Source: Burkholderiales bacterium
Lineage (GTDB): Bacteria > Pseudomonadota > Gammaproteobacteria > Burkholderiales > Burkholderiaceae_C
Direction of reading: 5' to 3'
Assembly: GCA_947381415.1 (NCBI GenBank)
Contig: CANCVB010000003.1
Coordinates: forward strand, 62,001 to 126,000
Length of the DNA stretch: 64,000 nucleotides
The notes beneath the pieces are model-generated. The model was not told the origin of the DNA. It did no database searches and worked only from the letters and a program-made list of their open reading frames with translations. Each line of letters opens with the position of its first letter. Position 1 is the first letter of the stretch. A program made the position numbers and the translations under genes. Positions 50,824-54,723 of the stretch are shown here, piece by piece.

Positions 50824-51783
50824 TTAAAAAACGGAATGCTCACCCAAATCAACACTTTGTTGACTGGCAATCAGCTGATCGTAATAGCTAAACAAGGTTT
50901 GTGACCCAAATGCAGGTGTCGCTTGCGCGTCATAGCACTGCGCTTGTGCATCCCATACCAACATGGATTCGCTCGCGTAGTAACGACCAATTCGCGCAAG
51001 CTCGGCTTTGCTTTTCAAGGATGGAATCAACCACCCCAAGGTTTTCAACAATTGAATGATGACATCCAACAAACCCACAGGCACATGCTTGTATTTGGGG
51101 GTTTTCCCGAGTGCCTTGAACAAATATTCGCCCTGTTGCAAAGGTGTGATGGCTTCACCAGGGCCACCAATGGGCAATATTTGCCGATGCTTCGATGCAT
51201 CTGTCAGGCAGTGTGCAATGAACAGTCCCAAATCCGAATCGCTGATGGGCTTGCATGCAGTGAGCTGGCCATCCCCAAACAACAAAAACGGTTTGTTGTG
51301 TCGAAGCCGATTGATTTGACCAGACAAGGATTTGAAAAAAGCAGTGGGTCTGACGATGGAGTACAACAGACCTGAATCGATCAACTCTTTCTCGAATGCC
51401 AACTTGGCTTGCTGAAAAGCAAGCAGGGGTTTTTGCACGCAAATTGCTGACAACAGCACGAATTGCTGGACGCCCGACGTTTTGGCCAATTGGAGTATGT
51501 GCGAATGCGCCTGGTAGTCAACAGCCCAAGCATCTTTGGGTGCACCTGTACGTGAGGCCAGGCAAGACACGATCGCATCAAAGCGTTCGCCTGCAAATGC
51601 CTGTTGCGCAAGTGATTCAGGTGATTGCACATCACCTGTGCGAAATTGTGTTTCTGAACGCAACAGTTCTTGGGCAACTGCCTTATCACGCACAAAGCAA
51701 ACCACATCATGCCCGCAAGCAAGCAATGCTTTGTATGTGGCTTGACCTATGGTTCCGGTTGCGCCGAATAAAAGAACGCGCAT
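50824..51783 (-). CDS. bciA: Divinyl (proto)chlorophyllide 8-vinyl reductase-like NAD(P)-binding protein (BciA/DVR family)
   Basis: LLFGATGTIGQATYKALLACGHDVVCFVRD; RPTAFFKSLSGQINRLRHNKPFLLFGDGQLTACKPISDSDLG; IGGPGEAITPLQQGE; C-terminal ATPAFGSQTLFSYYDQLIA...LGEHSVF as I recall for BciA. Confidence 0.8.
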   Translation of the reverse strand: MRVLLFGATGTIGQATYKALLACGHDVVCFVRDKAVAQELLRSETQFRTGDVQSPESLAQQAFAGERFDAIVSCLASRTGAPKDAWAVDYQAHSHILQLAKTSGVQQFVLLSAICVQKPLLAFQQAKLAFEKELIDSGLLYSIVRPTAFFKSLSGQINRLRHNKPFLLFGDGQLTACKPISDSDLGLFIAHCLTDASKHRQILPIGGPGEAITPLQQGEYLFKALGKTPKYKHVPVGLLDVIIQLLKTLGWLIPSLKSKAELARIGRYYASESMLVWDAQAQCYDAQATPAFGSQTLFSYYDQLIASQQSVDLGEHSVF

Positions 51784-51817
51784 GTGTGCCCTGTCAAAAA
51801 AGGCGACTATAGGCTAA

Positions 51818-51831
51818 CTGGCGGAAACGAA
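51818..51831. repeat. 14-bp direct repeat of the tRNA-Ser 3' end (putative attR)
   Basis: CTGGCGGAAACGAA, identical and same orientation as 53351..53364. Confidence 0.75.
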
Positions 51832-51863
51832 TAAACCAAGTGAAACTATGAATAGCCAATCAC

Positions 51864-53000
51864 CTACTTCATAAGCTGCAGTACACATTTACCAAAGCTT
51901 TCACTCGCAACCTTAAACCCTAGTTCTTCGCACTTGATTTTGGCTATATCAAGATTGATCAAATTATTTTTATTTAATGGCAACGATTGCCCGTCGTCAG
52001 TATCCTTTTCGCCAGTATTTGCCGATCGAGACCTTGTATTTTTGTTTTGAGCTTGTGCGAAATCAAACAATACACATTTTCCAGCGTCAACAGGTCTTAC
52101 TTTTTCGCAATTATCAATTGCTAATTTATCTGCCATTTCCTTTGTCCCCATTCCATAAGCATATCCATATGGGGTTATATGGTCTTTGTATTTAGAAAAT
52201 GCAATTGAACTATTGTCAACCCTATTGCTTATATCTTCAAGTGCACCAAGAAATCCTACTGATAATTTTTCTTCTTTAAGTCCAAATGGTGAAGGAACTA
52301 AATCCCTGTAAGGTAGAACTTTTTCAAATAAGTTGGGTGAAGGTTTTGTGTAATTCATCAATTCATTTGATAGAGCAAAGTAACTCTCTGCCCAAAGAGT
52401 AACTTTTTCAAGAAGCTTTGCCTTTCGTTTGTCGGCTTTGATAGACGTATCATTCCATTCAGCAACGCTTGAGTCCAAAAACCCAAGTAATGCAAGGTTG
52501 AGTCCGAACGCAACTTGGTAATACCTTCCTTGAGATCCGCTTTGCGTAATTAAAATATTCAATAGCGTAATTTGTTTGTTGCCTACTGTTGTAGACAACG
52601 GATCTATAGTTAAGCAGTGATCTTCACGATTCCTTTTTATTCCTTGCCTAATTACTAAATGGTTGGGCGAACAAGGTTCACCGGTCCAGTACGAATTTGT
52701 CCCACTTTCTGTAGTTGCGATAATGAATTGTTTAGCAAATAATTGATTTCCTTCAAAGTGCACTAGGGTCACACTCCCCATCTTTATTGAACTTTTACCG
52801 GTTGAGGTACTTGCAATTCCTTTTTCAAACTGCCACTTCTCTCCACCTATCAATATAGGATAACCACCGATGGTTACATCCTCTTCAATTACCTCTCTAA
52901 ATGCAATGTTTCGCAGAACTCCATTCGGAAACAATTCTGAACTTTGGGACTGAGTAACCCACATTAAAAATACCGCAGCAATTAATTTAACGTGCTTCAT
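51864..53000 (-). CDS. Secreted hypothetical protein, orphan, AT-rich gene
   Basis: MKHVKLIAAVFLMWVTQSQS signal peptide; C-terminal IKCEELGFKVASESFGKCVLQLMK motif. Confidence 0.75.
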   Translation of the reverse strand: MKHVKLIAAVFLMWVTQSQSSELFPNGVLRNIAFREVIEEDVTIGGYPILIGGEKWQFEKGIASTSTGKSSIKMGSVTLVHFEGNQLFAKQFIIATTESGTNSYWTGEPCSPNHLVIRQGIKRNREDHCLTIDPLSTTVGNKQITLLNILITQSGSQGRYYQVAFGLNLALLGFLDSSVAEWNDTSIKADKRKAKLLEKVTLWAESYFALSNELMNYTKPSPNLFEKVLPYRDLVPSPFGLKEEKLSVGFLGALEDISNRVDNSSIAFSKYKDHITPYGYAYGMGTKEMADKLAIDNCEKVRPVDAGKCVLFDFAQAQNKNTRSRSANTGEKDTDDGQSLPLNKNNLINLDIAKIKCEELGFKVASESFGKCVLQLMK

Positions 53001-53144
53001 ATTTAATCTCATAAAGTGGTTATCGGTATCGCCAAGTTAAATTTTCAATACTGTGAAATTTTGCAATATTTTCAAATATAGCTATAAAGTTTGCAGTCCT
53101 ACAGGGGTACGACTGAACTTCAAAATTTATTCCCTTTTGTAATC

Positions 53145-53175
53145 GCAAGCAAAGGATCACCATTACTTTGCTTGC
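53145..53175. repeat. Perfect 10-bp inverted repeat with 11-nt loop
   Basis: GCAAGCAAAG-GATCACCATTA-CTTTGCTTGC; no T-run after it. Confidence 0.8.
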
Positions 53176-53192
53176 ATTCGATAGTGAATTCG

Positions 53193-53223
53193 GAATTAAT
53201 AAAGTCTAGGATCTAATTAATTC
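53193..53223. repeat. Perfect 8-bp inverted repeat with 15-nt spacer
   Basis: GAATTAAT-aaagtctaggatcta-ATTAATTC. Confidence 0.65.
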
Positions 53224-53313
53224 AATAAAAAATGCTGCGCAACATAAACGTTAAGAATTCGTATCTGAAAGCAGTATGCAAAAAATGATGAGGGGTAACT
53301 TGTAGGTTAGCAA

Positions 53314-53340
53314 TAAAAAACGCCCCGTGAGGGGCGTCTT
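53314..53340 (-). terminator. Intrinsic terminator downstream of tRNA-Ser
   Basis: Minus strand reads GACGCCCCTCACGGGGCGTTTTTTATTG: GC-rich stem plus T-run. Confidence 0.85.
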
Positions 53341-53350
53341 GAATTGGTAG

Positions 53351-53364
53351 CTGGCGGAAACGAA
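53351..53364. repeat. 14-bp direct repeat inside tRNA-Ser 3' end (putative attL)
   Basis: CTGGCGGAAACGAA identical to 51818..51831. Confidence 0.75.
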
Positions 53365-53444
53365 GGGATTCGAACCCTTGATGAGGCTCAACACCCCATA
53401 CTCCCTTAGCAGGGGAGCACCTTCGGCCACTCGGTCACGTTTCC
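53352..53444 (-). tRNA. tRNA-Ser(GCU)
   Basis: GGAAACGTGACCGAGTGGCCGAAGGTGCTCCCCTGCTAAGGGAGTAT...GGTTCGAATCCCTTCGTTTCCGCCA; long variable arm, anticodon GCT, encoded CCA. Confidence 0.97.
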
Positions 53445-53454
53445 AGCTGATTAA

Positions 53455-54723
53455 TTATGCCTGATTCTTCTCTAAGTCAAAGGCTTTGTGCAGCGCACGC
53501 ACCGCCAACTCTAGGTATTTCTCGTTGATTACCACAGAAGTTTTGATTTCGCTGGTAGAAATCATCTGTATGTTGATGCCCTCTTCACTCAAGGATTCAA
53601 ACATTCGACTGGCCACCCCAACGTGGCTGCGCATGCCAATACCCACAATCGATACCTTGCAGATCTTGGCATCGCCGATCACCTCGGGGGATCCCAAGTC
53701 GGGCATGACTTGGTTTTTAAGCAACTCCATGGCTCGGGCGTGATCGTTGCGGTTCACGGTGAAACTAAAGTCGGTCAAACCACCTTTGCTGATGTTTTGA
53801 ATAATCATGTCAACATCAATATTGGCTTGGGCAACAGCGCCCAAAATTTTGTAGGCAATGCCCGGTTTGTCAGGCACACCGATGATGGAGATTTTGGCTT
53901 CATCACGGGTGAAGGCAATGCCCGATACGATGGCTTGTTCCATTTGCTCGTCTTCCTCAAAAGTAATCAAAGTGCCAGACTTGGCTTCCTCGTGAATATC
54001 GATGTCCCAGGGCGTGAAGCTAGAGAGCACCCGCAAAGGTACCTTGTACTTGCCCGCAAATTCCACCGAACGAATTTGCAACACCTTGCTGCCAAGAGAA
54101 GCCATCTCCAGCATTTCTTCAAAGCTCACGGTATGCAAGCGCCGCGCTTCGGGCACCACGCGGGGATCGGTGGTGTACACCCCATCCACATCGGTATAAA
54201 TCAAACATTCGGCAGCTTTCATTGCTGCGGCCACCGCGACAGCCGATGTGTCAGAGCCACCGCGGCCCAGTGTGGTGATATGCCCCTCGGGATCCACCCC
54301 TTGAAAACCCGTGATGATGACCACCTTGCCCGAGGCCAAATCTGCGCGAACACGGGCGTCGTCGATCGATTCGATGCGTGCCTTGGTAAATGAACTGTCG
54401 GTTCGGATCGGAACTTGCCAACCGGCATAACTGACAGAAGCCAAACCTTCTGCCTGCAAAGCGATAGCCAGCAAAGCTGAAGATGCTTGCTCGCCTGTGG
54501 CTGCCAATGCATCCAGCTCTCTGAAGTAATCGGTGTTGCTGGTATCGGGCACCAACTCTTTGGCCAAACCCAATAAACGGTTGGTTTCGCCACTCATGGC
54601 AGAGGGAACGACCACCAATTGGTGCCCTGCTCTGGCCCATTTGGCCACGCGTTTAGCGACATTGCGTATGCGCTCGGTGGACCCCATCGAGGTACCACCG
54701 TATTTATGAACGATCAAAGCCAT
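53455..54723 (-). CDS. lysC: Aspartate kinase
   Basis: MALIVHKYGGTSMGSTERIRNVAKRVA; GRGGSDTSAVAVAAAMKA; two ACT domains. Confidence 0.97.
   Translation of the reverse strand: MALIVHKYGGTSMGSTERIRNVAKRVAKWARAGHQLVVVPSAMSGETNRLLGLAKELVPDTSNTDYFRELDALAATGEQASSALLAIALQAEGLASVSYAGWQVPIRTDSSFTKARIESIDDARVRADLASGKVVIITGFQGVDPEGHITTLGRGGSDTSAVAVAAAMKAAECLIYTDVDGVYTTDPRVVPEARRLHTVSFEEMLEMASLGSKVLQIRSVEFAGKYKVPLRVLSSFTPWDIDIHEEAKSGTLITFEEDEQMEQAIVSGIAFTRDEAKISIIGVPDKPGIAYKILGAVAQANIDVDMIIQNISKGGLTDFSFTVNRNDHARAMELLKNQVMPDLGSPEVIGDAKICKVSIVGIGMRSHVGVASRMFESLSEEGINIQMISTSEIKTSVVINEKYLELAVRALHKAFDLEKNQA

Follow-up and report, generated by a model that had tools for sequence, protein, structure and literature searches.

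In 'Ca. Methylopumilus', freshwater bacteria of the Methylophilaceae, the additive flexible genomic island fGI-2 consists of units bounded by tRNA-end repeats, which span 330 bp–42 kb and hold 1–63 CDS of mostly unknown function (PMC10872708). Islander requires an integrase gene and a length of 2–200 kb, and names the vicinity of the T/acceptor stem junction as one integration subsite (PMC4383910).

Tycheposons are cargo-carrying units of 4–200 kbp that are bordered by tRNA genes and have a tyrosine recombinase.

The window analysed here, a stretch of 64,000 nucleotides (G000:C3:62001-126000) from a 2.5-Mb genome (G000), contains a segment of 1,533 bp, measured from repeat start to repeat start, that lies between tRNA-Ser(GCU) and a bciA-like gene and is referred to below as the islet. 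Like fGI-2, the islet is bounded by direct repeats of the final nucleotides of a tRNA; unlike fGI-2, which has tRNA-Lys, a 20-nt repeat and units in varying numbers, it has tRNA-Ser(GCU), a 14-nt repeat and a single unit. It shares with Islander islands a full tRNA gene and a displaced 3' fragment in the same orientation, with the edge near the T/acceptor stem junction, but it has no integrase gene and is shorter than 2 kb. Islander would reject it because of its length and integrase filters, and standard island finders that filter for an integrase and for a length of 2 kb would miss it. The P4-type elements of the same genus (for example on G046:C113, G048:C63 and G006:C4) use the same tRNA-end site, have the same right edge of the core and in most cases a terminator after it, but carry an integrase, whereas the islet has one cargo gene only. 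Of the features of a P4-type element, the islet shows the insertion at a tRNA 3' end and a core that ends with CCA, but not the PF13356+PF00589 integrase, and it has neither the size nor the tyrosine recombinase of a tycheposon. It is a small additive-island unit, of a kind already known: a variable unit with tRNA-end repeats and at least one CDS, at a locus that is insert-free in three other genomes of the genus (G018, G059 and G060). The islet is a clear small example of a single foreign gene settling behind a tRNA gene in a burkholderial genus of freshwater type, "freshwater" being judged from the titles of the records that hold close bciA relatives (Comamonadaceae, Burkholderiales and similar).

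The repeat and its target gene

The sequence-only reading had placed a copy of the tRNA-Ser 3' end on either side of the islet, in the same orientation, and an exact-match search found CTGGCGGAAACGAA at both places (Table 1). The repeat comprises the final 13 nt of tRNA-Ser(GCU), which are two T-stem bases, the acceptor strand, the discriminator and CCA, plus one further base, and it extends to 17 nt at the cost of one mismatch, TA[A/G]CTGGCGGAAACGAA. Frequent occurrence of the 14-mer across the genome had been named as an argument against insertion at the tRNA; a search allowing up to one mismatch found two sites in the 2.5-Mb genome, those at the islet.

Table 1. Features of the islet and its flanks, with positions in the window.
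Feature	Position	Strand	Basis
bciA-like NAD(P)-binding protein gene, native distal flank	50824..51783	-	ORF, family and genus comparison
-10-like hexamer of bciA (TATAGT), close to the distal repeat	51806..51811	-	leader alignment
tRNA-distal 14-bp repeat, the displaced tRNA 3' fragment	51818..51831	+	exact-match search
Inner spacer of 32 bp, cargo stop codon to distal repeat	51832..51863	.	sequence
Cargo gene, the sole one, 382 aa	51864..53012	-	ORF; without Pfam or PHROG family
AT-rich non-coding stretch, terminator to ORF start	53013..53316	.	without recognised integrase remnant
Intrinsic terminator directly after the tRNA	53317..53340	-	10-pair stem and T run
tRNA-proximal 14-bp repeat	53351..53364	+	exact-match search
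tRNA-Ser(GCU), the target gene, 3' end facing the islet	53352..53444	-	ARAGORN, Rfam tRNA
lysC, native proximal flank	53455..54723	-	ORF, genus comparison

Exact 14-mer direct repeats less than 5 kb apart form seven merged pairs in the window, so the length of the repeat is by itself weak evidence. The repeat stands out once it is tied to a tRNA 3' end. For 34 tRNA genes, repeats of the 3' end were sought in up to 10 kb of downstream DNA, or in far less where a contig ended sooner. Two genes had copies longer than 12 nt, namely 14 nt for tRNA-Ser(GCU) and 17 nt for tRNA-Arg(ACG), and the runners-up had 12 and 10 nt. On G000:C20, 4,781 bp separate tRNA-Arg(ACG) from the downstream copy of its 3' end; a tyrosine integrase gene lies in between, and this region is likely a small island in the window genome.

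The locus in related genomes

In a tree of lysC the window genome groups with G018, G059 and G078 (80/91 support), with G019 adjacent. The sequence-only reading had proposed that the ancestral order was lysC/tRNA-Ser/bciA and had suggested looking for an empty site with a single repeat copy in close relatives. Both were found in G018, G059 and G060, where there is no insert, the repeat is present once and 55–58 bp separate the tRNA from bciA. In the window, bciA begins 35 bp beyond the displaced tRNA end, and the distance from the tRNA to the -10 of bciA in G018 is about 22 nt longer than the distance from the distal repeat in the window. Between the -10-like hexamer and the start codon, the window and other members of the genus have bciA leaders that align, and because of this alignment the distal 14-mer can be said to abut native bciA sequence at the place where the sisters have the tRNA end. 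The sisters differ from the window by about 13–14% in DNA of the lysC region and by about 22–25% in BciA protein; with sister sites so diverged, the exact pre-insertion junction cannot be read.

The interval between tRNA-Ser and bciA is occupied by two small ORFs in G078. Other genes lie upstream of bciA in G019 and G083; no contig of either genome runs from the tRNA to bciA, and these genes are only presumed to lie in the interval. Judged by eye, the small genes directly upstream of bciA in G083 and G019 are toxin-antitoxin-like. The lysC tree and the bciA tree place G078 differently, which points to recombination at the tRNA that separates the two genes. The bciA-maoC block was not found elsewhere in the genus where 5–12 kb behind tRNA-Ser were checked.

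Content of the islet

The DNA between the repeats had been described as more AT-rich than its flanks, and windows of 500 bases agree, with 36–39% GC inside against about 46–57% around; the GC fraction is 0.35 for 53013-53351. The cargo ORF has a GC of 0.375 and a GC3 of 0.311, compared with a GC3 of 0.50–0.64 in 18 neighbour genes, and its codon fit is the poorest in the comparison with those genes. The cargo gene is compositionally foreign.

The 382-aa cargo protein had no match in Pfam or PHROGs and no useful match in a PDB sequence search, and its AlphaFold model from a single sequence has a mean pLDDT of 36. The protein is predicted to be secreted, its N-terminus being signal-peptide-like when judged by eye; residue 5 is a Met that coincides with the first residue of the homologues, and translation possibly starts there. 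In a search of the 85-genome set of the genus the gene was absent from the other 84 genomes, a result that speaks against the possibility, raised beforehand, that all relatives carry it. Those 84 genomes gave weak partial matches, the best being a 56-residue C-terminal stretch (E = 7e-6). At the C-terminus of the cargo ORF, a short stretch (KCEELGF...FGKCVLQL) is similar to the ends of ORFs in G003 and G068 that are unrelated to it in other respects. Remote homologues were found in four other genomes of the family (401 searched) and in two further genomes of the order (400 searched), and in all four family genomes the GC of the homologue is lower than that of the surrounding DNA. Searches of genome_contigs, viral contigs, plasmids and phages returned no relatives of the cargo gene.

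The earlier statement that no integrase fits inside the islet also held: the one ORF is without a family match, and tblastn with 12 integrases of the genus against 51700-53460 gave no match better than E = 0.027. Searches of the islet for inverted repeats and Rfam families found nothing except the tRNA.

The sequence right after the tRNA in the window is GCTACCAATTCAAGACGCCCCTCACGGGGCG; the terminator type here is GACGCCCCTCACGGGGCG, whereas G019, G018, G048, G008 and G026 have the type AAYGAATA. Because the closest sister genomes do not share the window type, the terminator probably came with the insert. The window type also follows tRNA-Ser in G074, G065, G035, G058 and G003, in which no second core was detected, and because these members share it the terminator could instead stem from ordinary homologous exchange. 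A single exact match to the post-tRNA terminator sequence occurs in the window genome. The view that this terminator is native, and hence speaks against integration, was considered and dropped, as terminators follow most of the displaced cores in the genus and the closest relatives differ in type. The 3' end of lysC and the spacer between lysC and the tRNA are of the local subclade type in the window, and therefore the foreign boundary lies within or just after the tRNA.

Integrases at the same tRNA end in the genus

The 85 genomes of the genus were scanned for the 13-mer TYCGTTTCCGCCA, and the matches were mostly the tRNA itself. Extra copies were overall not above the control with the backwards pattern, and for this reason each was judged by its context. 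Copies in G016, G002, G014, G029, G050, on G020:C7 and one on G023:C39 were set aside, there being no integrase or terminator adjoining them in the sequence examined.

At least 12 of the 85 genomes have tyrosine integrases, mostly P4-type, that adjoin either the tRNA-Ser 3' end or a duplicate of this end. Integrase genes of PF13356 lie about 120–210 bp from the core in G046 (two), G006, G033, G082, G008, G048, G061 and G020; the start of a DUF6538-type gene adjoins a core copy in G023; and in G030, G015 and G022 an integrase ORF begins about 210–235 bp behind the tRNA itself. In the islands of the genus that have a displaced core, the integrase gene adjoins that core. Most contigs with a core do not include the tRNA, so that it is the core sequence that connects them with tRNA-Ser. 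In six of seven comparisons, tRNA and copy are identical as far as CCA or the base after it; in G006 the identity continues because the same sequence follows both copies. The core is often, though not always, followed by a terminator: a terminator-like hairpin comes after it in G046 (three copies), G023, G006, G082, G008 and G048, and none is evident in the 46 bases left on the contig after the G033 core or in the stretch examined behind the core of G020. In G061 the contig stops 20 bases past the core. No PF13356 protein, the P4-type integrase, was found in the window genome.

Contig G046:C113 has three tRNA-Ser 3'-end cores, at 128, 10561 and 15655, two of them with P4-type integrases adjoining, and one unit with AlpA-like and CHC2-zinc-finger genes; these cores likely form a tandem array. 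In G006 the ends of contigs C7, C4 and C2 all have the core and are identical for over 80 bp behind it, which suggests that one element end is repeated in tandem. Two contigs of the genus set, titled 'Rickettsia typhi' and 'Bordetella parapertussis', look like mislabelled MAGs.

Origin of the islet

The insertion of an element of about 1,533 bp at tRNA-Ser, proposed from the sequence alone, gains support from the sister sites, the absence of the gene from the rest of the genus and the integrases of the genus. We consider it quite probable that a P4-type integrase inserted the segment into tRNA-Ser(GCU) at the junction of T-stem and acceptor, which the edges of the islet match, and that the integrase has since been lost. 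A P4-type tyrosine integrase would have recombined an incoming tRNA 3'-end sequence with the chromosomal tRNA at this junction; the incoming DNA would have restored the tRNA end and supplied the terminator and the cargo gene, and the former 13-nt tRNA end would have been displaced and ended up against the bciA promoter. Later loss of the integrase gene and of the remaining element would then have left one cargo gene between two att-like repeats. We infer the recombination event, the class of the enzyme and the later loss of the integrase, as against a cassette that never had one. The enzyme was likely a P4-type tyrosine integrase (PF13356+PF22022+PF00589), an assignment taken from the relatives because the islet has neither an integrase nor a recognisable remnant of one and the genome has no PF13356 protein. 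For the same reason no source of mobilisation in trans is visible in the present host, and a deletion remnant therefore seems likelier than a cassette mobilised in trans.

The integration step would be the same if the islet were a live non-autonomous cassette, made up of cargo and att sites and moved in trans by a P4-type integrase. Both cores, the terminator and the open reading frame are intact, members of the genus carry integrases at the same tRNA end, with three cores on one contig in G046, and a one-gene unit falls within the size range of the tRNA-end-bounded units in the Methylophilaceae. A live cassette is nevertheless unlikely, as the window genome is without a PF13356 integrase, the 85 genomes hold neither a second example of the gene nor an exact-core islet without integrase on one contig, and deletion alone explains the structure. 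The wider proposal, that the islet is an integrase-free single-gene cassette moved by the P4-type integrases of other islands and that the tRNA-Ser(GCU) end is a docking site for stand-alone cargo genes, shared across the genus, seems to us quite unlikely. A narrow literature query returned nothing on integrase-less tRNA islands excised in trans. The comparison across the genus marks tRNA-Ser(GCU) as a recurrent P4-type docking site, which makes trans mobilisation testable.

Homologous exchange, in which an incoming tRNA-Ser with terminator and gene replaced the locus and an illegitimate right-hand joint left 13 nt before bciA, would fit the resemblance of the post-tRNA terminator to those of several other genus members, the variation of the tRNA-Ser to bciA interval among sisters and the discordance of lysC and bciA across the tRNA in G078. 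It is very unlikely in our view, since the local lysC end and spacer would confine the left crossover to within or just after the 93-bp tRNA, unless the donor belonged to the same subclade, and the right joint lies at the core edge used by the islands of the genus. That edge also argues against a chance 14-mer near an orphan gene that arrived or arose otherwise. The seven exact 14-mer pairs within 5 kb in the window show that such repeats do occur, but of the 34 tRNA 3' ends, each scanned over the accessible downstream sequence, two have a repeat of more than 12 nt, that of tRNA-Arg with an integrase gene inside, and the distal copy adjoins bciA where the sisters have the tRNA end itself; coincidence is thus extremely improbable, and placement by a P4-type integrase with later loss of that integrase remains our preferred reading. 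Elsewhere in the window genome, contigs C1 and C30 have two similar solitary integrase-like genes, each adjoining a porin-like ORF, and one of the two adjoins tRNA-Pro(CGG).
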